From the NCBI RefSeq assembly GCF_016862935.1, contig NZ_BONX01000050.1, positions 1-64,000 on the forward strand: 64,000 nt of DNA, read 5' to 3'. The translations under genes were made by a program, and so were the position numbers. Below are positions 28,568 through 60,490 of the stretch, one piece after another. Every line of letters begins with the position of its first letter. Within the stretch, counting starts at the first letter, position 1. Origin of the DNA: Plantactinospora mayteni. Lineage in GTDB: Bacteria > Actinomycetota > Actinomycetes > Mycobacteriales > Micromonosporaceae. The notes under the pieces were generated by a model, which was given only the letters and a program-made list of their open reading frames with translations, had not been told where the DNA came from and did not search any database.

Positions 28568-28708
28568 CCAGCGGACACCAGCCACGACCGCGCCGTGGGT
28601 GACGACTTGATCCCACCCGCAAGGCACGCGTCCATGTCAGTCAACGAATCCGCTGCTCACCCGAGCACCACAACCAGCAAACCCCTCACCAAGGAGCTTT
28701 CCGATCCC

Positions 28709-30894: not shown

Positions 30895-31923
30895 TCAGTC
30901 CGGGCCATCCCCGCAGGTCTCGGTCGACGGAATCATCTCGCCGAAGACGTGCTGGTGGTGCCATCGCAGATACCTCTCCCGGGGCGGCGAGGCGGCGGCG
31001 GGCAGCAGAAGCCGTTCCGCCAACGGCGGACGACCAAACGCGGCCCGCGCGGCCGGGTCGGCCTGGACAGCCGCCGCGAGCGCGGGTTTGAGATGAATCC
31101 GCAAACCGCCGTTGACGGTCATCAGCCCGGTGTCGAATGCAACATCATGGGTCGGGCAGGCGGCCAGCCCGTTGCGCGCGTCGAGTCGTTCGGCGTGCGT
31201 GCTCACTCGCCACGGCTTGATGTGGCTGGCGACCAGCATCCGCGCTGCGCGTCTGCCCGATAGGTCGACGGACAACCCACAAAACACGCATCGGTGCGCG
31301 TGGTTGCGGAGCACCTCCCCTGCGAACCGATGCTGACCGATCCGCACTGCGGCGATGAGGAGACGCTCGGTCACCCGTTCCTCAAGGTCAGTCCGCTCCC
31401 GCGACCACCCCGCCGCCGCCGGCCGCACGGCGGCGGCGACATCCACCTCGTCCAACTCACGCTGGCCGATTAGGACCAATTCCCTGTCATCGTCAGCGAG
31501 CCCGAGGAAATCAGGCAACGCCTCCGGCGTGATACCAACGCCACGCGCGGCCCTCAGGACGAGCCGATAGACTGCGCCGAGCCGCCCCGGCTCGCACAGG
31601 AGCTGAGCCGCGACCTCGACCTCGTGTTTCGCGCCGTTGCGTCGACTCCCGTCGAGGTTGGCCATCTTTGCTAGGACACTGCTGTTCGGCCGTCGGATCA
31701 GGCGCGCCAGAGTCGGCACAGGTTCGGCCGCCCGATGCGCAGTTGATCCCCCGTACCGGCGATGGTTAACCAACAGACTCGCCGCGAGGCAGGTGAGCGT
31801 CTCGACCGGGAGGAACGCGACCTGTCTCCCCGCGACGACGGGCGAACGCGCCCCAACCGAGCGCCACTGCTCACGCGCCGCGCTGGGCTGGATCTCGACG
31901 TAGTCGCGAAAATCAAAGACCAA
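30895..31923 (-). CDS. HNH endonuclease family protein
   Basis: About 342 aa from a TTG codon at 31923. The C-terminal HNH nuclease has all parts: CVFCGL, the catalytic LVASHIKPW, RNGLAACPTHDVAFDTGL with the second metal-binding Cys/His pair, and GGLRIHLKP. The N-terminal 200 residues are a separate helical domain (RQVAFLPVETLTCLAASLLVNHRRYGGSTAHRA) seen in actinomycete HNH proteins annotated as restriction endonucleases. It lies 151 bp after the RelE-UvrD gene on the same strand, so it may be the last gene of the defence operon. It might supply the nuclease activity that DISARM usually gets from DrmC; that is an inference. Confidence 0.8.
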   Translation of the reverse strand: MVFDFRDYVEIQPSAAREQWRSVGARSPVVAGRQVAFLPVETLTCLAASLLVNHRRYGGSTAHRAAEPVPTLARLIRRPNSSVLAKMANLDGSRRNGAKHEVEVAAQLLCEPGRLGAVYRLVLRAARGVGITPEALPDFLGLADDDRELVLIGQRELDEVDVAAAVRPAAAGWSRERTDLEERVTERLLIAAVRIGQHRFAGEVLRNHAHRCVFCGLSVDLSGRRAARMLVASHIKPWRVSTHAERLDARNGLAACPTHDVAFDTGLMTVNGGLRIHLKPALAAAVQADPAARAAFGRPPLAERLLLPAAASPPRERYLRWHHQHVFGEMIPSTETCGDGPD

Positions 31924-32074
31924 GGTCCGACACCCTTAGTACGCCGTGAATCAACTGTCAGTGTCCAACGGGAGTGTGCCCGAATCAGACGATTCCACCA
32001 CTCCCGCCGCAAACTCGCGAGGACCTGCGGTGAGGCGGGCATCGCCATCAGACGCCGGGGTCGAAGCGAGGCCA

Positions 32075-34210
32075 TCAGTTGCGCTGCACCACCACAAGCT
32101 GGTCGCGTGCCCGGGTCGCCGCGACGTATCTCAGCGACCGGCCCCTAAGCTCTGCGTCTGCGCGCTCGGCGGGGTCGAGCATGGCGAGGCGCTCGAGTTC
32201 GGCTGGCGATGGTTTGCCCGCCGCCAGTACGACTTTGGAAAACTCGGTGCCCTTCGCTCGATGCATCGTCAGGACCGGCACCCGGCCGGGCGAGGGACGA
32301 TCGCGGTCGACGGCCCGTGCGTCCACTCCTTGCTCGGTGAGAGCAGTGACCACCCGGTCGCGGTGGAACCGGTCGTGCACCAGGACCGCCACCGTCTCGT
32401 GAGCGTCTCCGGCTCCTAGCCACGAGCGAACGTGGTGGACGATGGCTTGGAGTTCGTCCGAGAGCGAGTCAACGATCACTTCGGTGGGCGCTGGACCGCT
32501 TCGGGCGGATCGGTAGCCGGTGCTTTCCGGTTCGTCCTGCAGGTCGACGTACTGGCCATTGTCCAAGACCGACATGGCGTAGCGCAGGTTCTGTGCCGTG
32601 GTGCGGTAGTTGAGCGTCAACCTCTGGGACCGGCCCACGATGGCTATGCCGTAGCGCCCGAGAACAACGCGGCTGCCGTAGATGCGCTGGTGCGAGTCCT
32701 CGGCGATGAACAGGTCGTCAGGACGTTCCTCGACGGCGGCCCGGAGCAGGAGCCAGTGCGTGGGAGAGAGGTCCTGCCCTTCGTCAACCAGCACATGATC
32801 GGCAGGGCGGTCCTCGCCTGCGGCCAGGTGTGACGCGGCGACCGCAGCGGCTTCGGTGAAGTCGAGGCTGCCGTCAATCCGGCATCGTGCCCGGTAGGAA
32901 TCGATCAATGCCCAGACGGCACGGCGTCTGGCGCGGTCCAGGGCGACACCTCTTCCCGGCCGCCGCACCCTCAGATAGCCGGTCTCGTCGTGCACCTTGT
33001 TGGGAAGGACGACATGCGCGTACTCGGTGGCCAGGAACGTCTCGTTGGCGATCTCTGGCGGGAGCGACGTACCGGTCGATTCGACGACCTCACGCCACAG
33101 GTTCGGTGCAGTACGCGACAGCGGCGCCGCGCGCTCCTCGCCGAGGACGTCGCGCATGGCCGGCGCGAGACCGTTTCCCGCGGTCCGCAACACGGCTGCG
33201 GCGAGCGCGTCCACGCCGATCACGTACACGCCCGGCTGTCCGAGCGTCTTGGTCTGGGGTACCCGTGGGTCGAGCTGGGTGAGGCTGTCGCCGAGTGCGT
33301 CGGCGAGGTTGGTGGTGAAGGTGGTGAGGACGATTCGGGCCGCTGGGTCGCGTTGGGCGAGGGCACGCGCCCGGTGGACGAGGACGACGGTCTTGCCGGT
33401 GCCGGCGCCGCCAGCGAGCCGGAACGGCCCGTTGTACGGCCGGTCGATGTACCGACGCTGCTCGGGGTGCAGGAAGATGCGCCAGGCGCCGAAGTCTCCG
33501 CCTTCGATGACGCGGCGGAGTTCTTCCTGGCCGTCGATGAACGCGAATTGCAGCGCAGCCGCCGGTCGTTTGAGGGACTGCAGCACGTCGGCGTCGTCGT
33601 CGGACGAGGAGGTCTTCTCCAGCTGCATCCGCTGGACGATCGCGTCGATGTCGTCGCCGGCTGCCAAGTCGACCAGGATGGTGCCGATCCAACCGTCGTG
33701 ACGTTCGGCGAGCGTGAGGATGGCGTCCTCGTCTGCGGCTGCCGCTGCCTGAGTGGCGACGTCCTCGGGAAGTCCGAGCTTGTCGACGAGGTCGGCGTGT
33801 TCGTGGCCGAGGCGAGCGAACAGCGGCTTCGCCGACTCCGGGTCGGTGGTTGCGGGGGGCGGCGTCATGGCGACGAACGCCGGTTCGATCTCCTCCACCT
33901 GGGGCAGACCGTTGATCGGATTGACCTTCAGGCGTACGCGTTGCGCTGTGGTGATGGCGTCATCGTGTGGCCAGATGCCGTGAATGACGTAGTGGGTGTC
34001 GCCGTCCCCGTCGAGGCGGAACATGACGGCCCGCCAGAACTCGTCGACCCGTCCGGTACGAACCCGCGGGTCGGCGCTGTGCTGGATGGGTTCGATGTGC
34101 AGGCCGGGGGCGGTGTCGTCGGCCCCGAGTTTCTGCAGGAAGCTCATCGCCTTGCCGCGGACCGACCCATCGATCTTGCTGGCGAGTTTTCCCATGATGA
34201 TGGTCGGCAT
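32075..34210 (-). CDS. UvrD-family helicase with N-terminal RelE-like domain
   Basis: 711 aa. The ATG at 34210 overlaps the helicase stop as TGATG. Residues about 1-85 (SVRGKAMSFLQKL, then RVRTGRVDEFWRAVMFRL, then HYVIHGIWPHDDA) match the strand order of RelE/ParE-type toxins. The SF1A helicase follows: Walker A AGGAGTGKTVVL (about 264-274), Walker B LVDEGQDLSP (about 467-476), and motif VI-side TMHRAKGTEFSKVVLA (about 648-663). It probably unwinds DNA 3'-5'. The RelE-like domain could cleave RNA or act as a binding module. It is coupled to the DUF1998 helicase and belongs to the defence operon. Confidence 0.85.
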   Translation of the reverse strand: MPTIIMGKLASKIDGSVRGKAMSFLQKLGADDTAPGLHIEPIQHSADPRVRTGRVDEFWRAVMFRLDGDGDTHYVIHGIWPHDDAITTAQRVRLKVNPINGLPQVEEIEPAFVAMTPPPATTDPESAKPLFARLGHEHADLVDKLGLPEDVATQAAAAADEDAILTLAERHDGWIGTILVDLAAGDDIDAIVQRMQLEKTSSSDDDADVLQSLKRPAAALQFAFIDGQEELRRVIEGGDFGAWRIFLHPEQRRYIDRPYNGPFRLAGGAGTGKTVVLVHRARALAQRDPAARIVLTTFTTNLADALGDSLTQLDPRVPQTKTLGQPGVYVIGVDALAAAVLRTAGNGLAPAMRDVLGEERAAPLSRTAPNLWREVVESTGTSLPPEIANETFLATEYAHVVLPNKVHDETGYLRVRRPGRGVALDRARRRAVWALIDSYRARCRIDGSLDFTEAAAVAASHLAAGEDRPADHVLVDEGQDLSPTHWLLLRAAVEERPDDLFIAEDSHQRIYGSRVVLGRYGIAIVGRSQRLTLNYRTTAQNLRYAMSVLDNGQYVDLQDEPESTGYRSARSGPAPTEVIVDSLSDELQAIVHHVRSWLGAGDAHETVAVLVHDRFHRDRVVTALTEQGVDARAVDRDRPSPGRVPVLTMHRAKGTEFSKVVLAAGKPSPAELERLAMLDPAERADAELRGRSLRYVAATRARDQLVVVQRN

Positions 34211-37200
34211 CAGTCTCCTTCGTCCGTCTCGGTGGCGGCGTGGGTCAGGGCGGTGACGACCTTGGCAGGGTCGGGTTCCACCAGGTGCCATCCGTGCTGG
34301 GCCAGGTCGCTTCGGTCCTGTTGCGACATGTGGGCGAAGGCGACAGCCACCCGGAGAGCGGGCCAGCAGACGTCGAGCGGAATGCCATCGGGCCCTTCCG
34401 CGCCGATGGTGGGCGGTGCGACGTTCTCGCCGGCGAGCGCGCTGATCAGTTCCTTCTCGTTCTCGGTCAACGCCGCGTCGTAGGCGTCGGCCCAGGCTCC
34501 GACCGGTCGGCCTGGTCCGGCCTGGTCCGGCTGCGCGGTCACCGGCTCGACCAGACTGGTCGTCGTCACAGTCGTCGGCCAGTCGCGCAGGCCGAGCGCG
34601 TTGGCGAGCCGCAGCCAGGCCCGCCAGGAGTCGGCGTGGTTGTCGCCGAGCATCTCGCTGCGATCGTCGAGCACCACAGCGACTTCGACACCGCCGCCCA
34701 TCATCTCGATGACCGCCGCGAGGGATCCGAAGCGGCGCAGGTGGACCCGGCGTTCACCAGCGGGTAGGTCCTCCCCGAGCAGCGCTGCTCGACCAATCTG
34801 GGGAAGGGCGACCGTGGTGGAGGTCTGGATCGGCTGGGCGCCGGCCGACAGGAACATGGGCACGGCTCGGGCGGTGGCCTGAACCGCAGCCGGGTTGGGA
34901 TCGCGAACCCAGCCGACGAGCCAGTCGACCATGCCGTGTCCCAGGGCCTTGTAGGTTTCCGGCGGGGCCTGGAAGCCGGGGACGTTCACCAGGCTGCCGG
35001 CCAGGGTCGGATTCCACCATGGCGGTGCGACGTTCGTGGCGGTCTCGGCGGCGGCGACGTCGGCGCTGGTCAGTGTGATGACCAGGATGCCCAGCTCGCG
35101 CAGATGGGCCCGCTTGACGGCGTCGTCGGCGAGGCGGTTGACCGCGGCGGTCGCGTGGTAGGCCCGCCCGTCCGTAAAGATCGCGATGTCGGGCACGTTC
35201 ATGTCGCCGGTCTTCAACAGGTAGTCCGGCCGGGAGTCCGCGACGTTGACCTGCGGGCTGAGGGTCCATTGGCGGTGCGTGCCGGGCAGGGTGAACCGGG
35301 CTGTGTTGCCGACCGGCGACGGGGTCTCGGTGACGGCGGCGCCGATGCGGCGTAGCCGACCGAGGAACACCCGGTGGAAGGAGCGTTCCAGATGTGACTC
35401 GGGTTCTTCGCGTGGAGCCAGCTTGGTCACCGTCCAGGTCGTGTCCTCGGCCGTCTGAACGTCGGCAGGCAACCCGAGCAGGGTACGGAGGTGACGCTCG
35501 GCCGATGCCCGCGAAACTCGCCGGGTCACTCCCGGTGCGGTGAACGGTAGCAGGCAGCGATGGCAGGCGAGGCGCTCCTCGTGGCGGCAGGGGCAGTCCC
35601 GCACCCGGTCCCAGGCAAGGACCAGCAACTCGCGCAGGTGGTCCGGCTCGGCGACACCCGCCAGGTAACCGGTGCCACCGGGAACGGTGTCGTGCAGCAG
35701 GATCGCATCGTGGTTGTCGCTGCCGTCGGACAGCGTCGGGTCGACGACCTGCTCGACCCGGATGTGGTCGGGGTGACCGCCCATCTGTTCCCGCAGTCCG
35801 AGCAGCAGCGCCGCGGACAGGCTCGGCACCGCGAAGTCGTCGCCGAGGCTGACCGTGTGCGGCAGCCGGATCAACAACCCTTGGGTACGCAGGGTTCGGG
35901 ACAACGCGACGGTGCTGGTCACCTCGTTCGGCGCGGTCCGGTAGGGACACCATGGACGGTGTTCGTGGGCGCGGTTGCGTCCGCTCTCGGTGTCGCGCTT
36001 TCCACAGCCAAAGCAGACGCGGAACAAGGTTCCCTGCCGCTCGGCTCCGGCGATGGTTCGGGCCGTGCCGTGACCGGTCGGCCCGAGATTGAGCCATCGG
36101 ATGTCGACCGACCGCAGGTGGACCCAGCCCAGCCCGGTTCCTTCGACGAATCTCCGGTCATCCATGTGCTCGGGGGAGACATCCGCAGCGGTCACGATCT
36201 GGAACGCGACGCGACCGCGTTCGTCGTGCCGGTCGGAGATGGCGACCTCGTCCCGGCGAACCTCGGCCGACACCCGGGTGAGTTCGACGACGTCGAGGCG
36301 CTGGCCGGTGTCGTGAATGCCCCGGCTGCCACAGCGCGGACAGACGACGGGAACAGCTTCGCGGCCGGTCGCGGCGATGTCGCACGCGTGACCACAGGCT
36401 GGGCAGAACACCCAGGCACGGATCGACGCGCCGTCCAGGCCCAGATCCACCGCGTCGATCTCGATTTCCCAGCCGCGAGCGTAGAAGGTGGCCCCGGGGG
36501 CGAACTCACGCAGGGCCTGTGCCGAACCTCGCTGGAACTGGGCGCTGTCGTAGCGGTACTTGCCGTCGTCCGGGTCGATCCAGGACAGGCCGACGTCCAG
36601 GGTGACGCTGTCGTCGAGGAGGGTGTAGTTGGGCAGCAGTCCGTATTCCTCCAGGACACCGATCCAGTAGCTGCTCCGCAGATGAGCGAGCTGCCCTCTG
36701 GTCAACTGCCGGGTCGCCTGTGCCGACCGCAGTGCCTGCTTGTCGTCGTCGGTCGCCGCCTGCGACTGCACCCGGGCCTCCAGCTCGGGTAGCAGCTCGG
36801 TGATCGCCGCTTGCCGCTCTTCGAGCAGCGTCACGGTCTGCCGCCAGCGGTCACTGGCGTCGCGAACGCGGTGGGCGAAGCCGCTGCTGCGCGGACCGGC
36901 GACCGGTTTCAGCCAGTCGCGAAGCCGGTCCACCACCTCGACGGGAAGCGCGTCGAACATTGCCGCGAACCGGTCCAGATCCGTTTCCCACGACTGCTCG
37001 GCGTGCGACACCAGGTCGCCGAGGAAGGTTCCTGGCGCGTACGAACCGATCGCTCCGCTGGCCTTGCGCGGACGACGCCGCCCGGGTTCCCGCGCGAACG
37101 CGTCGATCAGGTACGCCGTGTACTGCCGGCGCAGGATCTCCTCGGCGGTTAGGTAGGTGGCCGGCGGTCGCACCTCGCCGTCGATCACCGACAACGGGTC

Positions 37201-40200
37201 GCCGATCTTCGGCAAGTGCTCCCCACGGCCGGTGACGAAGGCCAGATCGAAAGCGTTGCCGGTGAGCCGGCCCGCCCGCCCGACCCGCTGCAGGTAGGAG
37301 GCGACGGTACGGGGCAGCGAGGCGAGGATGACCGCCGACAGATCGCCGATGTCGATGCCCATCTCCAGGGTGGGCGTGGCGACCAAGACGTTCGGCGACT
37401 GAGGGCTGGTCGCCGCGTCCCGGAAACCATCCTCGTACGCCAGCCGGGTCGCGTCGTCGAGCAGGCTGGTGTGTTCCCGGGCGACGACCCGGCGCATGTC
37501 CGGCGACGCGTACAGACTTCGGTAGAAGTTGCGCGGCGACATCGGTTGTTGGCGCAGCCGTCCGCGACAACGCACGTTCAGGCAGGGCGCGTCCGTCAAC
37601 TGGTCGACGGTGACGAGGCTGCCCGGGGTACCGGCTCGACAGGTGTCGCAGACCAGCAGGTGCCGTCCGGCGGCGAGGTCGCTCTCCTGCGTGGGGGCCA
37701 CCACCACTCCGGAGACGGGCAGGGCGTAGACGGTCGCGCCGGACTGGCTGGTCGTCGTGGTGAGCACACCGTCGCGGGCGAGCCGGTCGAACAACACCCG
37801 GGCGAGTCGACCGCCATCGAGCGGGGAGACGTCGAGCACCCGCGAGGTCCAGCGGGCGTACCAGGACTGGGGCGAGGTCACCGGGTCGAGACCGCCGAAA
37901 TCTGCGGGGCCGCCGACCTTCGGGTAGGCGGGGGCGGGGCGGTCGCGGGGGAATGCCGGCATGCCGTCGCTCCGGGGCCGGCCACCCCAGATCGACCAGC
38001 GGCGGCCGTCCTCCGCCCGATAGCGCTCGAACCATGGATGGTCAATCGCGCCCTGGACCCGCATCCGGTCCAGGACACCGCGTACCCACTGCACCAGCGC
38101 GGCGTCGCCGACGCTCGCCTCGCCCAGACGTTCCTGCCACGAGGTGCCGCTCAGCGCGGCCCGGGCCAGGCCGGCGACGCGCGCCGGCAGCCCGGCCTCG
38201 ACCTCGACGGTGACGGATCCGGTCAGTTCTAGGGTGCGGCCGGTACGCGAGTTCAAGCCGAACTCGAGAGCCGCGTCGAGGGCCAACCGTTTACGCACCC
38301 GCGACTGCACCGACGGCTTGACCGCCCGTTGCCGGGGCTCCTGCCAGAACGGTGTGAAGGATTCCCGGTCGGCGCACTCCGGGGCCAGCAGTCGGTACCG
38401 TCGGATCGGATCGTCGCCGGCCTGCGCCAGGACCTCCTCGACCAGCCGGTCGAGAGTCAGTGCTCCGTCCACGACCGCTTCGCGCAGCACCGAACGGAGC
38501 GTCAAGATGTGCGACCGAGCCTGCACGAACCCGGCCCGGTGCGCCGCGTCCTGCACCGAGTCGGTGAAGACCAGGGCCTTCTTCTCCTCGGGCGCCAGCT
38601 TCGGCGCCCCGAACAGGGTCGACAGCGACACCGACAACAGCGTGGCGATGGCACTGCCGAGGAACCGGATGCCGTCCTCCTGCCCACACGACGGGCAGGT
38701 GTCCTTGCGGCTGAGTTCGTCGGCGGCGGCACCCACGTTGGTGAGCACCGGCAGGATCCAGCCGTCGCGAAGATCAGGGTCGTCCTCGGCGACCCGGTGC
38801 AGCAGCTCCCGGCTGCGGATCGCGAACCACACCAGTCCGTCTGGCGGCTCCTCGCCGTCGCACCGGACGATCGCCTCGGCAGGCGCGTACAGCAGGGGCC
38901 GGAACCGTCCCTCCCGAGCGGCGTGCTGCCGGCGAATGCCCTCGTCGTCTGAGGCGAGGCTGTCGCCCACCGGTGCGAGACCGATACCCCAGCCGGATCG
39001 CCCGCAATGCCGACAGTAGATCGCGGGGAAGGACGGCCGGGCCTCCTCGGCCTCGTCTGCAGCGACCGGCGGACCGTCGTCGCTCCACCGGAACCGGGCC
39101 GCCGCCGCCGCGGACCGGTCGATGCGGGTCAGCTCCCGCACCCACAGGTGCGCCTCGACCGAGAGAGCATCCCGGCCGACGACCTTGCGTACGTGCCCCA
39201 GCATCGCCAACACCTGCGACAACAGCGCCTCGGCGGGCTCCGGCTCGTCTTGCGGACCGAACACCCGCAGGGCCAGGTCGCTGAGGGCGACGGCCTGACC
39301 GGCCGTGCGGGCCAGCTCGACCACGAGCGGATGCGCACGGCACAACGCCGACAACAGCGCCGGTGTCGCACCAGCCAGCTTGTCGGCGGTCACCCCATAG
39401 AGCAGACCGAGTACGGCGTACGCGGCCTCCTCGCCGGAGGCGTCCGTGCTCACCTCCGGCAGTCGCCGGAGCCCGGCGGCGCGTAGCTCGCCCACGGCGA
39501 CCGGGGCGAACCCAGCTGCCCCCACCGTCTCGGTCGCACTGTCGGTCCACTCCGCCAGGCTGAGCCGGGTCTCGGTGACCACCGACGTCGAGTCGAACCG
39601 TTCCCCGAAGACGGTGGCGGCGAACCCACGCATCACCGACGGGTCGCCCTTGTCGCCGAGCGTCGCGGACGTGGCGACCGGCGTCATCAGACCCAGCGGA
39701 CGGCTACGGGCCGCCTCGTCGATCAACGGGTCGTCGTCGCGCCAGTGACTCTGTAAAGCCAGGCCGAGCCGGCGTAGCAGCATCGCCACGTCGGTGCCCT
39801 GCGCACCGTCGTAGGTATGGAACTCGTCCAGCACCAGGTAACGCAGACTGGTCGCGGACTGCCGCCACAGCTCCTGATCCTCGGCGCGCAACAGCAACTG
39901 GTCGAGCATCTTGTAGTTGGTGAGCAGCAAGTCCGGAGCGGTCTCCCGGATGACCGCACGATCGTTGATGAGCCCATCGGGGGTGACCGCCATTCGGGTG
40001 GCGGTCACCTGCCCGGTGTAGAGCGCCGCCGTCACCCCGGCTAGCGCCGGCTCAGTGCTGAGCAGCTTGGTCAGCCGCGCCGCCTGGTCGTTGGCGAGCG
40101 CGTTCATCGGATACAGGATCAGCGCCTTGGTGCCGGTCACCCCGGCACGCCGGGCCCGCAGCACATGGTCGAGGATCGGATGCAGGAACGCCTCGGTCTT

Positions 40201-40536
40201 ACCGGAACCGGTGCCCGTGGTGACCAGCGTCGGCAACGGCCGACGCGGCTGACCGTCCACCGCTGACGCCAACCGGGCGAACGCCGCCGCCTGATGTCCG
40301 TAGGGCGGGAACCCCTCGTACCACTCCAGGCTGGACCGCCATCCCTCGTCGGCCGGTCGGAACGGCAACCGCAGCCGCACGTACGGGCCCTTGAACATGC
40401 CGCTGTCGGGGTCGGAGAGGAACCGGTCCAGTCCGTCCCGCGCGTCCCCGTCGGTCAGCCCGAACGTCGTCGTCAGGTAGTCGACCAAGGCATGCTGGAT
40501 CCGGGCCGCCTGGAAGGTGGGGAGCAGCTCGGTCAC
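34210..40536 (-). CDS. Giant DEAD/DEAH helicase with DUF1998 (DruE-like)
   Basis: 2108 aa; the GTG start overlaps the methylase stop (GTGA). The N-terminus has a short helical region, a Q-motif-like PPYGHQ and Walker A TTGTGSGKTEAF (about residue 107), then DEFHTYDG (about 238). The second RecA domain has LVATPTLEMGIDIGDL and RVGRAGRL. Zinc-binding cysteine clusters occur near 510, 612, 965, 1378 and 1646; the last, CPCRHEERLACHRC, sits in a DUF1998 (MZB) region with LLHDTVPGGTGYL. Size and layout resemble DruE of the Druantia system and MrfA-type helicases. It is coupled in the operon with DISARM genes and would translocate on DNA. Confidence 0.83.
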   Translation of the reverse strand: MTELLPTFQAARIQHALVDYLTTTFGLTDGDARDGLDRFLSDPDSGMFKGPYVRLRLPFRPADEGWRSSLEWYEGFPPYGHQAAAFARLASAVDGQPRRPLPTLVTTGTGSGKTEAFLHPILDHVLRARRAGVTGTKALILYPMNALANDQAARLTKLLSTEPALAGVTAALYTGQVTATRMAVTPDGLINDRAVIRETAPDLLLTNYKMLDQLLLRAEDQELWRQSATSLRYLVLDEFHTYDGAQGTDVAMLLRRLGLALQSHWRDDDPLIDEAARSRPLGLMTPVATSATLGDKGDPSVMRGFAATVFGERFDSTSVVTETRLSLAEWTDSATETVGAAGFAPVAVGELRAAGLRRLPEVSTDASGEEAAYAVLGLLYGVTADKLAGATPALLSALCRAHPLVVELARTAGQAVALSDLALRVFGPQDEPEPAEALLSQVLAMLGHVRKVVGRDALSVEAHLWVRELTRIDRSAAAAARFRWSDDGPPVAADEAEEARPSFPAIYCRHCGRSGWGIGLAPVGDSLASDDEGIRRQHAAREGRFRPLLYAPAEAIVRCDGEEPPDGLVWFAIRSRELLHRVAEDDPDLRDGWILPVLTNVGAAADELSRKDTCPSCGQEDGIRFLGSAIATLLSVSLSTLFGAPKLAPEEKKALVFTDSVQDAAHRAGFVQARSHILTLRSVLREAVVDGALTLDRLVEEVLAQAGDDPIRRYRLLAPECADRESFTPFWQEPRQRAVKPSVQSRVRKRLALDAALEFGLNSRTGRTLELTGSVTVEVEAGLPARVAGLARAALSGTSWQERLGEASVGDAALVQWVRGVLDRMRVQGAIDHPWFERYRAEDGRRWSIWGGRPRSDGMPAFPRDRPAPAYPKVGGPADFGGLDPVTSPQSWYARWTSRVLDVSPLDGGRLARVLFDRLARDGVLTTTTSQSGATVYALPVSGVVVAPTQESDLAAGRHLLVCDTCRAGTPGSLVTVDQLTDAPCLNVRCRGRLRQQPMSPRNFYRSLYASPDMRRVVAREHTSLLDDATRLAYEDGFRDAATSPQSPNVLVATPTLEMGIDIGDLSAVILASLPRTVASYLQRVGRAGRLTGNAFDLAFVTGRGEHLPKIGDPLSVIDGEVRPPATYLTAEEILRRQYTAYLIDAFAREPGRRRPRKASGAIGSYAPGTFLGDLVSHAEQSWETDLDRFAAMFDALPVEVVDRLRDWLKPVAGPRSSGFAHRVRDASDRWRQTVTLLEERQAAITELLPELEARVQSQAATDDDKQALRSAQATRQLTRGQLAHLRSSYWIGVLEEYGLLPNYTLLDDSVTLDVGLSWIDPDDGKYRYDSAQFQRGSAQALREFAPGATFYARGWEIEIDAVDLGLDGASIRAWVFCPACGHACDIAATGREAVPVVCPRCGSRGIHDTGQRLDVVELTRVSAEVRRDEVAISDRHDERGRVAFQIVTAADVSPEHMDDRRFVEGTGLGWVHLRSVDIRWLNLGPTGHGTARTIAGAERQGTLFRVCFGCGKRDTESGRNRAHEHRPWCPYRTAPNEVTSTVALSRTLRTQGLLIRLPHTVSLGDDFAVPSLSAALLLGLREQMGGHPDHIRVEQVVDPTLSDGSDNHDAILLHDTVPGGTGYLAGVAEPDHLRELLVLAWDRVRDCPCRHEERLACHRCLLPFTAPGVTRRVSRASAERHLRTLLGLPADVQTAEDTTWTVTKLAPREEPESHLERSFHRVFLGRLRRIGAAVTETPSPVGNTARFTLPGTHRQWTLSPQVNVADSRPDYLLKTGDMNVPDIAIFTDGRAYHATAAVNRLADDAVKRAHLRELGILVITLTSADVAAAETATNVAPPWWNPTLAGSLVNVPGFQAPPETYKALGHGMVDWLVGWVRDPNPAAVQATARAVPMFLSAGAQPIQTSTTVALPQIGRAALLGEDLPAGERRVHLRRFGSLAAVIEMMGGGVEVAVVLDDRSEMLGDNHADSWRAWLRLANALGLRDWPTTVTTTSLVEPVTAQPDQAGPGRPVGAWADAYDAALTENEKELISALAGENVAPPTIGAEGPDGIPLDVCWPALRVAVAFAHMSQQDRSDLAQHGWHLVEPDPAKVVTALTHAATETDEGD

Positions 40537-48127: not shown

Positions 48128-48241
48128 AGACCTGATCTCCAATATTTCGACAAAAAGAACACCAAGCAATAAGTCGGTTGTTCTGTCCGGGCAGCCTAAC
48201 CTCTGGACCGCCTCACGGATCTCCCCAGATAGGTTGGAGAG
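48128..48241. promoter_or_regulatory. Divergent promoter between drmD and vsr
   Basis: 114 bp, more AT-rich than its flanks. It carries AGAACA (48156-48161) and TGTTCT (48179-48184), an inverted pair of the half-sites that make up the LexA-type box at 55146-55159, but separated by 17 bases instead of two. The wide spacing does not fit LexA; chance is possible. A separate promoter for drmD-drmMI-helicase is likely here. Confidence 0.45.
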
Positions 48242-48721
48242 ATGGGCCGAAAGTCCACCCCGCCAACACCCCTGAACACCGCAACCTCGGCTCGCCTGAG
48301 TCGGCAGGCCCGCGCCTCGACCAAACCGGAGTTGGCGTTGCGCCGCGAGTTGCATCGGCGCGGGGTACGGTATCGGATCAACCATCCAGGGCTACCCGGA
48401 CGTCCGGACATCGCGCTGACCAGGGCGAAAGTGGCGGTGTTCGTGGATGGCTGTTTCTGGCACCGCTGTCCTGAGCACGGCACGACGCCCCGCAACAACC
48501 GCGACTGGTGGGACGCCAAGCTCGATCGCAACGTCGTCCGGGACCGGGCCAAGGACGCCGCGCTGGCCGAACTGGGGTGGATCGCCGTCCATGTGTGGGA
48601 ACACGAGACGGTGACCGACGCTGCGGAACGCGTGGAGTCGATTTGGCGACAGCGGATCATGTCGAGATCCGGAGGTAGCCGTTTCGCCCGAACAACACGC
48701 CACGGTCCAGGAACCGATTGA
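48242..48721 (+). CDS. vsr: Very short patch repair endonuclease (Vsr)
   Basis: 159 aa. The ATG at 48242 follows GGAGAG closely. Vsr motifs: SRQARASTKPELALRRELH, the catalytic Asp in PGRPDIAL, FVDGCFWHRCPEHGTTP with zinc-binding Cys/His, and NNRDWWDAKLDRN. Vsr nicks 5' of T in T-G mismatches that arise when 5-methylcytosine deaminates, so it normally accompanies a C5-methylase; one lies at 55393. It is the only plus-strand gene within the leftward defence operon, and its last 65 bp overlap the end of drmB. Confidence 0.9.
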   Translation: MGRKSTPPTPLNTATSARLSRQARASTKPELALRRELHRRGVRYRINHPGLPGRPDIALTRAKVAVFVDGCFWHRCPEHGTTPRNNRDWWDAKLDRNVVRDRAKDAALAELGWIAVHVWEHETVTDAAERVESIWRQRIMSRSGGSRFARTTRHGPGTD

Positions 48722-50393
48722 AGAATCGACACGACGGCTCACCCAGGTGCACGCAGGCCGCACAAGCCCCACTTCCGATCCCGCAACCCGGATCCAAGGG
48801 ACAACGGTGCTCCGCGTCGACGAACGCGGTCAACAGGTCGTCGAGGTTCGACTCGAACACCGCCTGCATGCCACCGAGCACGAAGTCACCGCGGGCGGCG
48901 GCGTACAGGAAAAAACCGAGATGATGAGGCACGAGATACTCGCTGAGCGCGTCGCGTTCGATGCCGGAGAAGACGGCGGACTGCCGGATGAGCCGGTGGG
49001 CGTAGGTGTGAATCAGCTTGAGCACGTCGGCGCCGACCGACTCCACCTGTGGGTCGTCGCGTTTGCCGGGAACCGGGGCCGACTCCAGGATGGCGACTCG
49101 CGCTACGACCGGGTCGGTGCACTCCGGCGTCCATCCCGGCAGCCGGTGACCGCGACCGGCCAGCCACGTCGCGACGCGGATCGGGTCGAGCCGGATCAGG
49201 AACGCTTCGGTCTCGGCGAGGTTGCCGTAGAGCCGGTAGCCGCCCCGCTTGCGCCGGAACGGCACCAGCCGGCACTTCGACGGATCGTCCTCGCCCCGCG
49301 TGTAGCCGTACATGGCGTTGAGGATCGGGAACCTGTCGACCAAGTCGAGCCCGTCGATGCCGGCCCGCCGCAGGGCCGGCGGGTACTTCTCCCGGTAGCG
49401 TTTCTCGAGCGGGTCGTCGGGATCCGGCAGGCGCAACGCCGTCGTCGGTGTCCGACTCTCCGCCAACGCCATCGCGATGTCGACGGCCTCCCGTTCGGCC
49501 ACCTCCCGTCGAGCCGCAGGGAGCCGGTCGGCCGGATGATCGCCGGCCTTGGCCAATTGGCCGGCCTGTTCGGCGACCGTCGCCATCTGCTCCGCGATCT
49601 CCACCGGCATCTTGCTGGCGACCAGTTGGGCGACCAGTTCCTCGCGGGTCTGCTTCGCCGTCACGTCGGCGGGCTTGGCCGCTGCCAACCCCTCGACCAC
49701 CCAGATCAGCGCCTTACGCGGGCCCCCAGCGAGTTTCAGGTTCTCCCGGTGCTCGGGCCGCGGTGGGTTGATCAGCACCATGCCGCGCGGCACGTAGACC
49801 ATGCGGGCCTTGTGCACGTTCCACCGCACGGCACCGTCACCGCACACGCACTTCTTGTTGAAACCCAGCCCCTGCATGGTCGGCGTGTCACAGATCGGGC
49901 AAATGAAGCTGATATCCGCGGCCTTGGCGCTCTTCGGCACGACCACCCGCACGTCGTCGTGCTGCGGGCAGCGCCGAATCCACGGCTCGGTGATCGCACC
50001 GCACTCGTGCACGCCGACGAAATGGAGCTGACCCCAGGCCCGCTTGCCACACTTGCAGCGGGCATCCTCGGACTTGCCGATACGCTTGCAGACCCGGCAC
50101 AGCCAGACTCGGGGGTATCGCTCCACCGTCACGCCACGGCGGTCGTCGAGCTCGACGACCTCCACCGGCACCTTGCGCAGCAGATCGCCGGCCATCCCGC
50201 CATCCTTGTCGTTGGCGGTCCACGCACCGATCTCGGTCAACAGACTCCACCGCACCACGTCGGAGTCGATCTCGATCGGGCTCGGGGCCGACCACTCGTC
50301 GACCCGGTAGATGTCACCACGCAGGTCGACCGTCTGCTCCGGCAGGAAGGTACGCAGGATCTGGCTGCCGCTGCGAGAACCCAGCTTCGTCAT
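48657..50393 (-). CDS. drmB: DISARM protein DrmB (DUF1998)
   Basis: 578 aa, ATG start 11 bp after the drmA stop. Two zinc-ribbon-like cysteine sets occur at about residues 93-115 (CRVCKRIGKSEDARCKCG) and 166-187 (CPICDT, then KKCVCG). The C-terminus is a DUF1998 domain: THTYAHRL-type helix KLIHTYAHRLIRQ, LVPHHLGFFLYA, GGMQAVFES and the Cys-rich HRCPLDPGCGIGSGACAAC. DrmB works with DrmA in the core complex that blocks incoming phage DNA. The stop lies inside the 3' end of vsr, in convergent overlap. Confidence 0.85.
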   Translation of the reverse strand: MTKLGSRSGSQILRTFLPEQTVDLRGDIYRVDEWSAPSPIEIDSDVVRWSLLTEIGAWTANDKDGGMAGDLLRKVPVEVVELDDRRGVTVERYPRVWLCRVCKRIGKSEDARCKCGKRAWGQLHFVGVHECGAITEPWIRRCPQHDDVRVVVPKSAKAADISFICPICDTPTMQGLGFNKKCVCGDGAVRWNVHKARMVYVPRGMVLINPPRPEHRENLKLAGGPRKALIWVVEGLAAAKPADVTAKQTREELVAQLVASKMPVEIAEQMATVAEQAGQLAKAGDHPADRLPAARREVAEREAVDIAMALAESRTPTTALRLPDPDDPLEKRYREKYPPALRRAGIDGLDLVDRFPILNAMYGYTRGEDDPSKCRLVPFRRKRGGYRLYGNLAETEAFLIRLDPIRVATWLAGRGHRLPGWTPECTDPVVARVAILESAPVPGKRDDPQVESVGADVLKLIHTYAHRLIRQSAVFSGIERDALSEYLVPHHLGFFLYAAARGDFVLGGMQAVFESNLDDLLTAFVDAEHRCPLDPGCGIGSGACAACVHLGEPSCRFFNRFLDRGVLFGRNGYLRIST

Positions 50394-50404
50394 CTCGTCC
50401 GCCT

Positions 50405-53400
50405 TCAGTCATGAATGGGAGCTTGGGCCTCGACGTCGCGGAGGCTTCTCATGGGGGAGGGGTGGCCGATCTGACTGATGAACTGGGCCTTGGTGGCCGG
50501 GTCCTCAAGGTCGGCGAACCAGTCACGGACCCACTCGACGATCTGCTGCCGGTGCAGGGTGTCCTCCGGCCCGACGAGGCCGAGAATCTCAGCCACGGCC
50601 GACGCCTCGTCATCGGGCGTCAGTTTCGCGTCGCGGACATACTGGCGCAGCTTCGCCGGTGTGCTCAATCGCTGCTTGCTGGCCGGTTCGTGCACCATCA
50701 GAGTGCGGGCCGCGACCATCCCGGGCAGCGTGAGGGCCAGCACCCGCCGGCTGCGGCGCGTGATCGGGATGGCGTCGACGAACCGGTCGCCCTGGCTCAC
50801 GTATTTGTCGAAGTGCCGGAAAGTCTGGGCGTCGCGTTCCCGGCCGATCTTGTGTAGTACGTACACCAGTCCCGGGTGCCGGCGGCCGACGCGGGCGGTG
50901 GTCTGGATGAACTCGGCCGTGGTCAACGGCAGACCCAGCATGACCATCGTGTTGAGCCGGTCGATGTCCACCCCGTGCGACAACATCGAGCTGGCCGCGA
51001 TCACGTGGATGCGATCCTCGAACTTCGCCTCGGGCTTCTCCAGCCGTTCCAGGATGTCGCGAACCTCGTCGAAGTCGGTCTGCCCGGTGAGCTGCTCGAC
51101 GTTGATGCCGTCGACGGTGTTGTTGCTGCCGAGGCTTCGACCGGCGGCCTCGACGTCGTACAGGGTGGAGCCGTACACCACGTTCGTGCCGTAGAGGCTG
51201 AGCAGCTCGTCGACATGTTTCGGATCGATGCCGGCTTCCGTGCAGACGGCCGACGGCTCGTCGATCAGCCTGCGGACGCAGCGCTGCAAGGCATCCAGGG
51301 TCCGGTCGCTGACGTGCTCCAGCGTCACCCCGCGCGGCGCGACCGCGACAAAGCGCCGCAGCTTCTCTGCCTTCCGCACCGTCCAGAAGGACTCGCCGGA
51401 GCGGGGGCCTTGCTGTGGGAAGACCCGGCCTTCGCGCTGGTAGAGGACCTTGACCTGGTGGGAGTAGCCGGTGAGGGTCGCGCTGCTGGCGACGATCTTG
51501 GCGTGGCTACCGGTCAGCTCGTTCTGCAGGTAGTCGAGCAGGCTTTCGTAGTGCGAGTCGACGGCACCCAGACTGTCGCGGAGCAGATGCAACTCGTCCT
51601 GCAACCGCAGCGACGGCGCGAACCGCTCCGCCGGCATCGGCAGAGGGTTGAGGGTGCCCTGGCAGTCGGGCACCAGGCAGCCGTTGGGCGTCTTCGACCT
51701 GGTCGCGTAGGTGAAACCGTGCCACTCGACCGAGCACAGCTTCTGCGGCGGCCCGACGAGACCGCGCATCGCTTGCTGCAGGCCGATCGACGCGGCCTTG
51801 TCCAGCGTCCCCACTACGACGGTCGGGAGGAAGCGGAAGATCTCCTGGTCGACGATGTACACCGGCAACGCACCCCGCTTCCAGGGGCATTGCTTGTTGG
51901 CGCAGTGATGCTCCAGCTTCCACCGCTGCCGGTCGAACTTCATCCGCAGGTTCTCGTCGCGGCAGAACGGGCAATGCAGCAGCACCCGGTACTTGTCAGG
52001 CATGCCCGGGCTGTCCGGGTCGATCTCGTTCTCTTCCGGCTTGGGCACGATCTTGTTGGGCGTACCAGCCTTGCCGACCAGGAAACCGAGGCTGAACGGA
52101 GCACCCTTGACGTTCGCCTCCTGACGGACCAGCTCAGCGCCGGCGAGCGCATCGGCGAAACGCTGCGTCTGCTGCAAGCTCAGCAGCCGGAGGGGAAACC
52201 GGGACCAGGCCGTCACGCCGGTACGCTTGCCTGTCAGCCGATCGAAGAAGGCCGTCGTCAACAACAGCCCCAGGTAGGTTTCCGTCTTGCCGCCACCGGT
52301 GGCGAACCAGACGGTGTCGACGATCTTCGCATCATCGGCGGGGTCGGCGAGGAAGCGGATGGCGGACAGCAAGAAGCCAACCTGGAACGGTCGCCAGGCG
52401 TCATAGCCGCGTCCCTTCGCGCTCAGCCCGATCGCCCGGTTCATCAGCTGGAACGACAGGCGGATCTCCCCATTGGTCTGCAGAAGCTCCAGCCCGGTCC
52501 GCAGCCGGCCGAGTTCGGCGAACACCTCGGCTGCCGCCTTGTCCGCCTCGGCACGCATCCCCGATGTCCAGCCCTCGGCCACCTCCCTGGCCGCCAACGC
52601 CGGCTCCGACCAGTGGGTGTGGTCGTACTCTTCGAGCGCCTTGACCAGCGCGGCGAGTTCCGGCATCGGGTCGGCGGCGAGCCGCTCGAACGACAGCGTC
52701 GGCTCCGGCCGGCTGCTGTTCCAATATCCGGGGCGGACGGTCTGCACCGTGATGGTGTCGGAGCTGCGGAACACCCCGGGTGCTGGCACCTCGACACCGA
52801 CGTTGATGCCATACGCCGGAACGTCGCGGTCGTAGCGGAAGCTGTCCGGCAGGGCCTCCAACTGAAACGGGGTGGTGGCGAGCCCCGAGACCTCCAGCTG
52901 CGTTTCGTAGAGGTGCGAGTCGGTCACACCGCCGCGCGACTTCTCCGGGCTGGTGTTTACCAGCTGTACGACAAGCTCGGTGTCCCGGTGCCAATCCTCC
53001 ACGTCGACCCGAACCTCAGCGGTCAGGCCCGGCGCACCGACCGCGGCGAGGGCATCTCGTAGCTGCTTCGCGCCGAAGATTCCACCATCGGCGCCGACCA
53101 CGACGGAGATCTTTTCCTCGACGAGACCGGTACGCCACCAGCGCCGGTCCGGGTCCGGACCATCCTTGGGGTCCTTGACCCAGGCGCGGGCCCGCACCGT
53201 CACCGTCATCGACCACGGCGGGGCCTGGGCCGGACGGAACCGGATGCCGATTGCGCACGGGTCGAGCCGCTCCGCGCGGTCGTCGCTGGTGCCCTTCCGC
53301 ACCTCGTCCTCGCAGGCGAGCCGCCCCAGCCAAAAGGTCCCCGAGGGATCCACTTCCAGTCGATCCAGGCCGTCGCCTCGACCTGCTGCGACCACCCGCC

Positions 53401-53464
53401 CATCGAGCCAGGTGACGAAGGCCTCGCACGCCTCCTCCAGCGACTGGACCGCTTTGCCGCTCAT
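50405..53464 (-). CDS. drmA: DISARM helicase DrmA
   Basis: 1019 aa; the ATG overlaps the sigma-factor stop (ATGA). The N-terminal 330 residues form a beta-rich region typical of DrmA. Walker A is TGGGKTETYLG (about 386-396). A zinc-like insertion CPFCRDEN..HHCANKQCPW lies at about 500-530, and the second helicase lobe has SSMLSHGVDIDRLNTM (about 830-845) and TARVGRRHPG. DrmA is the DNA-loading helicase of the DISARM core. It lies in order sigma-drmA-drmB, so the three are one transcription unit. Confidence 0.86.
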   Translation of the reverse strand: MSGKAVQSLEEACEAFVTWLDGRVVAAGRGDGLDRLEVDPSGTFWLGRLACEDEVRKGTSDDRAERLDPCAIGIRFRPAQAPPWSMTVTVRARAWVKDPKDGPDPDRRWWRTGLVEEKISVVVGADGGIFGAKQLRDALAAVGAPGLTAEVRVDVEDWHRDTELVVQLVNTSPEKSRGGVTDSHLYETQLEVSGLATTPFQLEALPDSFRYDRDVPAYGINVGVEVPAPGVFRSSDTITVQTVRPGYWNSSRPEPTLSFERLAADPMPELAALVKALEEYDHTHWSEPALAAREVAEGWTSGMRAEADKAAAEVFAELGRLRTGLELLQTNGEIRLSFQLMNRAIGLSAKGRGYDAWRPFQVGFLLSAIRFLADPADDAKIVDTVWFATGGGKTETYLGLLLTTAFFDRLTGKRTGVTAWSRFPLRLLSLQQTQRFADALAGAELVRQEANVKGAPFSLGFLVGKAGTPNKIVPKPEENEIDPDSPGMPDKYRVLLHCPFCRDENLRMKFDRQRWKLEHHCANKQCPWKRGALPVYIVDQEIFRFLPTVVVGTLDKAASIGLQQAMRGLVGPPQKLCSVEWHGFTYATRSKTPNGCLVPDCQGTLNPLPMPAERFAPSLRLQDELHLLRDSLGAVDSHYESLLDYLQNELTGSHAKIVASSATLTGYSHQVKVLYQREGRVFPQQGPRSGESFWTVRKAEKLRRFVAVAPRGVTLEHVSDRTLDALQRCVRRLIDEPSAVCTEAGIDPKHVDELLSLYGTNVVYGSTLYDVEAAGRSLGSNNTVDGINVEQLTGQTDFDEVRDILERLEKPEAKFEDRIHVIAASSMLSHGVDIDRLNTMVMLGLPLTTAEFIQTTARVGRRHPGLVYVLHKIGRERDAQTFRHFDKYVSQGDRFVDAIPITRRSRRVLALTLPGMVAARTLMVHEPASKQRLSTPAKLRQYVRDAKLTPDDEASAVAEILGLVGPEDTLHRQQIVEWVRDWFADLEDPATKAQFISQIGHPSPMRSLRDVEAQAPIHD

Positions 53465-55083: not shown

Positions 55084-55392
55084 TGGTCCCTCCCCCTCCA
55101 TGGCGATCCGAGCGTAGAGCTGGGGTACGACAAGAAGGGACATTTAGAACAAATGTTCTGGCCGTGGTGGTGGTGGTGGTGCGCCAACCTCGCCCGAGGT
55201 GGCACGCAACGCTCGAGCGCCAGGCCGAGAGTCACTGTGGGCACGCTAGCCTTCCTGTCGGCCATTGATCGAGCCGAGGCTGCGTCGCATAGCAGTCAAA
55301 GATTCCGACCGTACGTCGCTGGCGCGGGGGCCGAAGGTGCAAGCGTCGACGCCGGTCGGCGTCGACGCCCGTCGACCAACTACAGTCCCAGC
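55084..55392. promoter_or_regulatory. Divergent regulatory region of sigma operon and methylase
   Basis: 309 bp between the leftward sigma-drmAB operon and the rightward C5-methylase. It contains a perfect GAAC-N4-GTTC box at 55147-55158, a six-copy GTG tract at 55164-55181, and an 11-bp perfect inverted repeat (GCGTCGACGCC-GGTC-GGCGTCGACGC) at 55343-55368 just before the methylase start. GTCGAC occurs three times in 55345-55376. Confidence 0.6.
55146..55159. promoter_or_regulatory. LexA (SOS) box, Cheo type
   Basis: AGAACAAATGTTCT is a perfect palindrome whose core GAAC-AAAT-GTTC is the Cheo-box consensus bound by LexA in Gram-positive bacteria and actinomycetes. It lies 64-75 bases upstream of the sigma-factor ATG, a normal position for a repressor site over a promoter. 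Damage induction of the sigma-drmAB operon is inferred. Confidence 0.6.
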
Positions 55393-56535
55393 ATGGCCCC
55401 GCGAACCATCAAGATCTCGGCAGTCGACCTCTTCTGCGGGGTTGGGGGTCTCTCATACGGTCTGCAAGCGGCGGGTGTCAAGGTCGCCGCAGGTGTCGAC
55501 ATCGATCCGGCGTGCGCGTACCCCTACCAGGCCAATGTCCACGCCCCCTTCCACAAGAAGGACGTGTGCGAGCTGGACGCTGAGGAACTTGCCGCCATGT
55601 GGCCGAGGGGGTCGGTTCGCGTGCTGGCAGGCTGTGCCCCGTGTCAGCCATTCTCCTCGTACCGCCGTGGCGCCGACACCTCCCAGGAAGCCCAGTGGCC
55701 ACTGCTCGACGAGGTCAGCCGTCTGATTGAGGGCACCATGCCCGAGATCGTCACCATGGAGAACGTTCCTCGCATCGGAAGCACTCCGATCTTCAAGGCA
55801 TTCGTCGCCAAGCTCAAAGAACTCGGCTACTCAGTGCAGTACGAATCCTGTCACTGCCCGGCTTACGGGGTCCCCCAACGTCGGCGGCGCTTGGTCCTCG
55901 TCGCCTCACTCCTCGGCGAGATCCGCGTCCCCAGAGGCACGGTTGCACCGACCGACTACGTCACCGTCGAGCAGGCCATTCGCGGGCTACCCGCACTCGG
56001 CCACGGGGAAGTCGACTCTGCCGATCGCCTCCATAAGAGCCGCACACTGACGCCAGTCAACCTGGCGAGGATCAGAAGCTCGAAACCGGGCGGCACCTGG
56101 GAGGACTGGCGTGAAGAGCTTCGCGCTCCGTGCCACCGCAAGTCGTCCGGCTCCACCTTTCGCAACGTCTACGCCCGCATGGTCTGGGACGAACCATCAC
56201 CCACCATCACGACGTTGTCCTACAACTACGGTGCCGGCCGTTTCGGCCATCCGGAACAGGACCGGGCAATCTCTTTGCGCGAAGCTGCGGTCCTTCAAAG
56301 CTTCCCGCGGAACTACGAGTTCGTCGCGCCCAAGGAACCGGTGCAGTTCGCGCCTCTCGGGCGGCTCATCGGCAACGCCGTGCCGCCGAAGCTCGCTCAA
56401 GCGGTGGGCGAAGCGATCGTGGAGCATGTAGCGACCGTCAGAGTACCAGTCAGTCGAGTCCGTCGGCGTGTGACGATTCCACCTTCATCTGCGAAGACGC
56501 CATGCCCAGTTCCGTCGCCCACAGCGGTCGCATGA
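55393..56535 (+). CDS. C5-cytosine DNA methyltransferase
   Basis: 380 aa from the ATG at 55393; the frame runs back to 55153 but that part is a Trp-rich translation of the GTG tract. Motifs in order: I DLFCGVGGLSYGL, IV GCAPCQPFSSY with the catalytic Cys, VI TMENVP, VIII PQRRRRLVLVAS, a recognition region of about 90 residues, IX-side REAAVLQSFP, and X GRLIGNAVPPKLAQAVG. No clear ribosome site precedes the ATG, so it may be leaderless. DrmMII-like C5-methylases mark class 2 DISARM, and Vsr usually accompanies this type. The target is unknown; GTCGAC in its own promoter is a candidate. Confidence 0.9.
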   Translation: MAPRTIKISAVDLFCGVGGLSYGLQAAGVKVAAGVDIDPACAYPYQANVHAPFHKKDVCELDAEELAAMWPRGSVRVLAGCAPCQPFSSYRRGADTSQEAQWPLLDEVSRLIEGTMPEIVTMENVPRIGSTPIFKAFVAKLKELGYSVQYESCHCPAYGVPQRRRRLVLVASLLGEIRVPRGTVAPTDYVTVEQAIRGLPALGHGEVDSADRLHKSRTLTPVNLARIRSSKPGGTWEDWREELRAPCHRKSSGSTFRNVYARMVWDEPSPTITTLSYNYGAGRFGHPEQDRAISLREAAVLQSFPRNYEFVAPKEPVQFAPLGRLIGNAVPPKLAQAVGEAIVEHVATVRVPVSRVRRRVTIPPSSAKTPCPVPSPTAVA

Positions 56536-60466: not shown

Positions 60467-60473
60467 ACAGTCG

Positions 60474-60490
60474 CCGACCCGACAGGTCGG
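60474..60490 (+). terminator. Hairpin after propeller gene
   Basis: CCGACC-CGACA-GGTCGG is a perfect 6-bp stem with a 5-base loop, starting 8 bases past the stop. Without a T-run it is only a weak terminator candidate. Confidence 0.35.

Follow-up and report, generated by a model that had tools for sequence, protein, structure and literature searches.

A sigma factor-headed drmA-drmB pair followed by an ARMADA type II operon: a candidate composite anti-phage locus in Plantactinospora mayteni

Can a drmA-drmB pair without drmC, a second set of helicase genes and the gene for a sigma factor belong to a single phage defence locus? The question is raised by positions 30895-56535 of a 64,000-nucleotide stretch from the 9.84 Mb genome of Plantactinospora mayteni (contig NZ_BONX01000050.1, positions 1 to 64,000; the window hereafter). 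A first-pass annotation of the letters alone had called this locus an expanded class 1 DISARM with extra helicases, nucleases and a sigma factor, a hybrid of class 1 DISARM, class 2 DISARM and Druantia parts, and perhaps a distinct defence system. We read it, with moderate confidence, as one conserved composite anti-phage locus in which an ARMADA type II operon stands behind a sigma factor-headed drmA-drmB pair, flanked by a DrmMII-type C5-methylase gene and vsr.

The minus strand of the locus carries, in this order, sigma-70, drmA, drmB, armA, armB, armC, armD and HNH genes, with the ARMADA type II operon at 32075-48127. On the plus strand, the C5-methylase gene is divergent from the sigma gene, and vsr lies antisense between drmB and armA (Table 1). 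Window proteins were scanned with PADLOC, Pfam and NCBIfam profiles, and gene starts were set through alignments of relatives, which placed those of sigma, armA, armB, armD and the C5-methylase inside longer open reading frames (ORFs). All named genes have intact reading frames with a single stop at the end. The joining by stop-start overlaps described in the first-pass annotation is found at sigma/drmA, armA/armB and armB/armC (4 nt each) and at armC/armD (1 nt), and drmA and drmB are 11 nt apart, but it is interrupted between drmB and armA, where 529 bp hold the antisense vsr, and between armD and HNH (151 bp).

ARMADA type II, as set out in a preprint (Bell et al., bioRxiv Sept 2025; PMC12458937), comprises a BrxHII-like helicase, a PglX-like methylase, a YprA helicase and a RelE-GajB protein. 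Its ArmC has a Vsr domain at the C-terminus, often with a further degenerate domain, and in E. coli all four genes are required and protection occurs without cell death (PMC12458937). The window has the same gene order of BrxHII-like, PglX-like, YprA-like and RelE-GajB genes. Because this order, the RelE-UvrD fusion and the C-terminal Vsr domains agree with that description, the DrmD-like, DrmMI-like, DruE-like and RelE-UvrD genes are, judged by sequence, an ARMADA type II set and not extras of a class 1 DISARM. Our reference for comparison was an E. coli plasmid locus, distinct from the strains tested in the preprint; gene by gene, its armABCD is 29.6-35.4% identical to the window over most of each protein (ArmA, 35% across long-ORF residues 89-915). 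A 3 kb stretch of armC is present at at least 95% identity in 518 of 5426 E. coli genomes.

The domains of the single Arm proteins fit this assignment to different degrees. The DrmD-like and DruE-like helicases named at first are present and are better read as ArmA and ArmC. ArmB is a homologue of DrmMI, as had been proposed, but a type IIG enzyme-methylase model, PDLC03611, matches it far better (1485 bits, nearly full length). Residues 1690-1900 of ArmC align with the Vsr family of these loci at an hhalign probability of 94%, and residues 1980-2108 form a second, degenerate Vsr-like stretch for which the match is weak (47%). The RelE-UvrD fusion was also borne out, by a UvrD/GajB-like profile match and by a predicted fold. 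Residues 1-270 of ArmD were modelled from 10 sequences, with a predicted local distance difference test (pLDDT) score of 75.5, and compared to the PDB using Foldseek. YoeB, YafQ, ParE or RelJK made up 14 of the 16 best entries, and the other two were a S. pneumoniae toxin-antitoxin complex and the uncharacterised HP0894. These 16 matches have E-values of 0.012-0.08, none reaching 0.001, and a best probability of 1.00; the model supports a RelE-like N-terminus. Elsewhere in the host genome is a second ARMADA II-like set (G000:C23:318000-352000; L082, L083), in which ArmB is 36-44%, ArmC 35% and ArmD 30% identical and armB and armC are separated by ~11 kb.

Upstream of armA, the drmA-drmB pair that defines DISARM is present. 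The DrmA helicase motifs TGGGKT, DELH, SAT and QTTARVGR are intact in 12 of 12 aligned sequences, window included, and DrmB scores under its NCBIfam cut-off (55 vs 240 bits). No DrmC was found by the profile scan of the unit or of 10 flanking ORFs, as the first-pass annotation had held, and DrmE, a feature of class 2 DISARM, was not found in the unit or the flanking ORFs scanned. Since DrmA and DrmB are accompanied by a DrmMII-type C5-methylase, another class 2 feature, the DISARM part of the locus is closer to class 2 in make-up, without DrmE or DrmC. In profile searches the sigma factor comes nearest to SigA/HrdB, and a generic sigma model (279 bits) outscores the MzaA model (257 bits). The sigma-70, C5-methylase, Vsr and HNH genes of the first-pass annotation were all recovered, the HNH protein with a predicted model (pLDDT 37) too poor for structure comparison.

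The combined layout is conserved in close relatives. A DrmA search of 200 genomes of the family gave 57, the window's own included, with a DrmA-like match at E ≤ 1e-20. Besides the window, nine of the 200 have a DrmA 65-96% identical, and in all nine sigma-drmA-drmB precedes armABCD, ordered as in the window; the C5-methylase gene is divergent in eight, and the contig of the ninth ends before it. A tenth complete locus, from another family (G362), was found via a class-wide ArmD search that gave matches at E 1e-40 in 87 of 394 genomes. Across these 11 loci, window included, a divergent C5-methylase gene is present in 10, the remaining contig ending short of it; vsr is present in 10 (tblastn found it in nine of the ten relatives, all but G023); and HNH is present in five, namely the window, G121, G030, G060, where it adjoins the C5-methylase gene, and G033, where only its beginning remains at the contig end. 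The G031 matches to sigma, drmA and drmB each come in two pieces. In a second locus set, 13 of 18 loci with DrmA at least 65% identical have the window layout within the 10 kb covered, with sigma missing from L115; the other five have no Arm genes within 10 kb. At least four loci are common to both sets (G121/L106, G030/L108, G033/L109, G362/L111). The genes taken at first as extras do therefore co-occur with drmAB in other genomes.

The two parts of the locus have also diverged in parallel. Over 10-11 loci, DrmA and ArmC distances correlate at r 0.98, with lower values for C5-methylase/ArmC (0.84), sigma/ArmC (0.80) and ArmB/ArmC (0.64) and only r 0.42 (p 0.05) for sigma/ArmB. In G302 (L054), G487 (L057) and a Tsukamurella plasmid (L184), a UvrD gene and a distant DrmAB pair (DrmA 29% identical) directly precede armABCD; in the plasmid, drmB and armA are 35 bp apart and armC is annotated in two pieces. 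Because a distant DrmAB precedes armA in these three, the gene orders suggest repeated joining of DrmAB to ARMADA II. In G302, the UvrD-DrmA-DrmB genes follow a gene for a 1559-residue protein that has TmtA-like matches. In G316 and G478, distant DrmB or DrmAB lies at a greater distance from armABCD. G017 and G104, whose DrmA is 53-54% identical, have sigma-drmAB, vsr and another C5-methylase, with the Arm genes replaced by an Mrr-type helicase and a GHKL ATPase.

How far the sigma-drmAB arrangement extends was seen from a search with the DrmA alignment, which gave at least 80 loci. Of the 80 listed, 75 have DrmA at 47% identity or above; five (L174, L177-L180; DrmA 32-36%) were set apart before counting. 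Among the matches listed for the 75 relatives, which are the scope of all counts that follow, a sigma gene occurs in 63, directly upstream on the same strand in 52 and with its best match on the other strand in 11. Partners are a C5-methylase in 58, Vsr in 46, a NERD-UvrD helicase in 29, Arm genes in 14 (in L117 only ArmA and ArmD, both distant and on the opposite strand), DrmC (PLD) in 10, Mrr plus GHKL in five and an SRA-HNH family downstream of drmB in four, each family taking its name from the one or two members that were scanned. Sigma-bearing hosts belong to the Actinomycetota, Pseudomonadota, Acidobacteriota, Myxococcota and Planctomycetota. A quick DrmA tree gave a window clade of 18 rows with full support (Shimodaira-Hasegawa-like approximate likelihood ratio test, SH-aLRT, 100). 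Sigma and DrmC stand together in one locus only, and because the DrmC rows form one clade this near exclusion amounts to few events, sigma changing four times and DrmC twice on the tree. Mutual exclusion (Fisher p 1.7e-8) was dropped as statistical evidence, as independent pairs on the tree give it no support. Among more distant DrmA loci, sigma was found in one of eight (G069) and in none of the five set apart, and G498 also has one. In the loci of G069 (L042) and G498 (L081), sigma-drmA-drmB lies near a UvrD gene, in one with a type I-like methylase, and DrmA is ~27-31% identical to the window's. TnsB-like and TnsC/TniB-like families lie beside proteobacterial sigma-DrmAB loci (L140, L136, L144, L172; one member of each scanned).

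We tentatively propose from these neighbourhoods a widespread class, sigma-DISARM, in which a primary-like sigma factor, encoded in overlap with drmA, would replace DrmC/DrmE beside DrmAB, together with a C5-methylase/Vsr cassette and exchangeable nuclease modules. These modules would be ARMADA II in the window clade and Mrr-helicase plus GHKL, NERD-UvrD or SRA-HNH elsewhere, and the class may be LexA-switched in the Micromonosporaceae.

The possible switch is a palindrome upstream of the sigma gene. An exact GAAC-N4-GTTC, whose core we take to be the actinobacterial SOS box, lies between the C5-methylase and sigma genes in 14 of 23 sigma-bearing window-clade loci, all 14 among the 17 hosted by Micromonosporaceae. 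It lies in none of 37 other loci with plus-strand sigma, and its rate over 41 stretches is 0.033 per kb. Loci in both sets were counted once, L115 stands outside the 23, and the second locus set was scanned from -2300 to -1000 from drmA. Near-exact boxes occur in L105 and G060. The lexA promoter of the host carries two such boxes, TCGAACATGAGTTCGA and CAGAACAGGCGTTCGA, and LexA may thus bind the box upstream of sigma. In Salinispora oceanensis (L115), where sigma is gone, the box is 95 bp before drmA and the box-promoter stands directly upstream of drmA. Exact copies ~210 bp before drmA in L107, L113 and L131 fall within the sigma gene and were left out of the box count. The recA of the host (G000:C22:41524-43575; L181, L182) is one 732-residue open frame with ~1 kb between its matched halves, an intein-like arrangement.

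The locus probably resides on a 57.6 kb integrated element, because an 85-base direct repeat (39 bases exact; 34-118 and 57648-57732) links a transfer RNA gene, tRNA-Arg(CCT), at the window start with a half copy at 57648-57732; the repeat consists of the 5' half of the tRNA and its flank. The integrase gene lies mid-element and adjoins neither repeat. The repeat stretch was matched in six other genomes of the genus, with one 84-110-base match in four, a 41-base match in G113 and two of ~110 bases in G104, whose sigma-DrmAB contig carries an integrase 87% identical. Just beyond the probable element end, at 59216-63213, are a WD40-like gene and then an NB-ARC/NACHT-TPR gene, a possible STAND-type pair.

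Compared with known systems, the locus is most like ARMADA II in its armA-B-C-D order, its BrxHII-like and PglX-like proteins, its YprA protein with Vsr and degenerate Vsr, and its RelE-UvrD protein, but its operon is preceded by sigma-70, drmA and drmB and accompanied by a C5-methylase, an antisense Vsr and sometimes HNH. The terms 'sigma factor', DrmD and DrmMI do not occur in the main text of PMC12458937, and its Results and figure legends contain no DrmAB joined to ARMADA. With DISARM the window shares DrmA, DrmB and a DrmMII-like C5-methylase, the methylase type of class 2; the names DrmD and DrmMI are those of class 1. It differs in that neither DrmC nor DrmE was found, in the sigma gene at the operon head, and in a nuclease probably supplied by partner modules. 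MZA has a sigma factor, MzaA, in a defence system (PMC9523054), and the window sigma matches MzaA models; no other Mza model (MzaB-E) is among the matches listed for the window proteins scanned. Druantia is approached through ArmC, which is in the same YprA branch (DruE models), and beyond this and a DruM-like C5-methylase no Druantia model is among the matches listed. Relatives of the module with Mrr-helicase, GHKL ATPase, C5-methylase and Vsr resemble the MORC/paraMORC systems (Iyer et al. 2008, PMC2292703), but the text of that paper gives no match to 'sigma' and the Pfam-scanned window proteins give none to GHKL. The hybrid nature proposed at first is thus upheld, with DISARM-type DrmAB and ARMADA II as its parts and with Druantia present only through the YprA family and DruM-like matches.

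Three other explanations were weighed. Under the original name, DrmD and DrmMI would be parts of an expanded class 1 DISARM and the remainder add-ons, as the PADLOC matches to DrmD (E 1.5e-89) and DrmMI (E 7.5e-52) and an NCBIfam DrmAS match (E 1.6e-107, though under cut-off) might suggest. However, according to PMC12458937 exactly these two homologues are also what ARMADA has in common with class 1 DISARM, and in the window they are followed by DruE-like ArmC and RelE-UvrD ArmD in ARMADA II order. Furthermore, 61 of the 75 DrmA relatives have no ArmA or ArmB profile match above 90 bits within the available flanks, while the C5-methylase is common among them, and DrmC is missing. The name is in our judgement wrong, and this explanation very improbable. 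It is also conceivable that the sigma-DrmAB-C5-methylase-Vsr set and ARMADA II are two independent, functionally uncoupled systems that travel together on a mobile element, which the tRNA-linked repeats and integrase suggest; each part also exists alone, and vsr lies antisense between drmB and armA. Against this stand an order fixed over 61-96% identity in 11 loci of two families, the parallel DrmA and ArmC distances, and the separate DrmAB-armABCD junction in Tsukamurella, and we consider such uncoupling rather unlikely.

A narrower variant takes the sigma factor and the C5-methylase/Vsr/HNH genes out of the helicase defence and assigns them to the mobile element as a regulatory and type II restriction-modification cassette. 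Pairing of Vsr with a methylase is typical of type II systems, HNH adjoins the C5-methylase gene in G060, and sigma can be lost, as in L115. The overlap of sigma with drmA, its position directly upstream in loci of several phyla, the parallel run of its distances with those of DrmA (r 0.80), and the restriction of HNH to five of 11 loci point the other way, leaving a separate cassette improbable. The reading as one composite locus has, for its part, several observations against it. The antisense vsr splits the locus into two transcription units. The promoter regions, inspected by eye, hold TTGTC-N11-TACGCT (conserved) before sigma, TTAGGCT before armA, and TAGGTT and TACAGT before vsr and the C5-methylase gene, with no motif common to the four beyond TAnnnT; because they share no -35 or spacing, no sigma regulon is claimed. 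armABCD occurs without DrmAB in the E. coli plasmid (1.2 kb upstream covered), G550 and G322, and also in G395, G330 and G309, where only 1.5-2.5 kb before armA are covered. Four Salinispora loci without Arm genes within 10 kb are nested inside the Arm-bearing window clade and keep sigma-DrmAB, and L159, sister to that clade, has sigma and no Arm genes within 10 kb. L115 has lost sigma but retains Arm and DrmAB, and in G121/L106 armA and armB are shortened and run together. The exact LexA-type box is absent from all six loci of the window clade outside the Micromonosporaceae, is missing in L116, and was not found at the host recA.

Table 1. Features of the locus, with positions in the window, strand and supporting evidence
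Feature	Position	Strand	Evidence
C5-cytosine DNA methyltransferase (DrmMII-like)	55393..56535	+	PF00145 E 2e-52; PADLOC DrmMII E 4e-98
LexA/SOS-type box GAACATTTGTTC (candidate)	55147..55158		64 bp upstream of sigma start
Sigma-70, primary (HrdB/SigA)-like, 540 aa	53461..55083	-	Pfam regions 1.2, 2, 3, 4; SigA/HrdB best E 1e-67
DrmA, SF2 (YprA-type) helicase	50405..53464	-	PADLOC/Pfam/NCBIfam profiles E 2e-102; solved DrmA 7s9v E 7e-53
DrmB, DrmA partner	48657..50393	-	PADLOC DrmB E 2e-33
Vsr endonuclease	48242..48721	+	PF03852 E 4e-19; FVDGCFWH motif
ArmA, BrxHII/RapA-like SNF2 helicase (DrmD-like)	45233..48127	-	DrmD-like E 1.5e-89; E. coli plasmid ArmA 35%
ArmB, PglX-like / type IIG-like DNA methyltransferase, NPPW	40533..45236	-	E. 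coli plasmid ArmB 34%
ArmC, DruE-like YprA helicase, MZB region, C-terminal Vsr-type domain and second degenerate one	34210..40536	-	DruE-like E 7e-86; hhalign to Vsr
ArmD, RelE-like N-terminal domain fused to GajB-like UvrD helicase	32075..34210	-	Profile match; predicted fold
HNH endonuclease (HNH_2), accessory	30895..31923	-	PF13391 E 6e-9
Tyrosine integrase of the probable mobile element (context only, outside the system)	28595..30172	+	PF00589 E 3e-16

Taking the composite locus as our working model, we infer a role in phage defence with a division of labour among its parts, joining the biochemistry of DrmAB (PMC9142583) with the behaviour of ARMADA II in E. coli (PMC12458937). DrmAB is activated by 5'-overhang DNA, methylated DNA lowers its ATPase activity, and DISARM can do without DrmC (PMC9142583). 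Self DNA would be marked by two methylases, ArmB (presumably at adenine) and the C5-methylase (at cytosine). The DrmAB translocase and the helicases ArmA and ArmC would engage phage DNA that lacks these marks and has free ends or replication intermediates, and the Vsr-type domain of ArmC would cut it in place of DrmC, with Vsr and HNH as possible helpers. ArmD, with its UvrD helicase and RelE-like domain, might process DNA or act on RNA. In the Micromonosporaceae, LexA at the box before sigma may repress expression until DNA damage from infection relieves the repression; the sigma factor could then boost its own operon and perhaps armABCD.

A literature search, most subscription journals being outside its scope, found no description of a sigma factor with DISARM or ARMADA, nor of DrmAB joined to ARMADA. 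The one earlier case of a sigma factor in defence that we know of is MzaA. The suggestion of a distinct system holds to this extent, that relatives share the combination, which is undescribed in the literature searched; its armABCD part is the known ARMADA II. How phage DNA is destroyed when DISARM works without DrmC is an open question (PMC9142583), and a DrmAB pair stably joined to ARMADA II, whose ArmC has its own Vsr-type nuclease domain, would offer a direct, testable answer. From the layout, DrmAB looks like a module whose nuclease partners can be exchanged. A sigma gene at the operon head, behind a likely LexA box, would make expression control part of the defence mechanism, and the locus, if this is true, would be a defence operon with its own RNA polymerase specificity factor, responding to phage-caused DNA damage.

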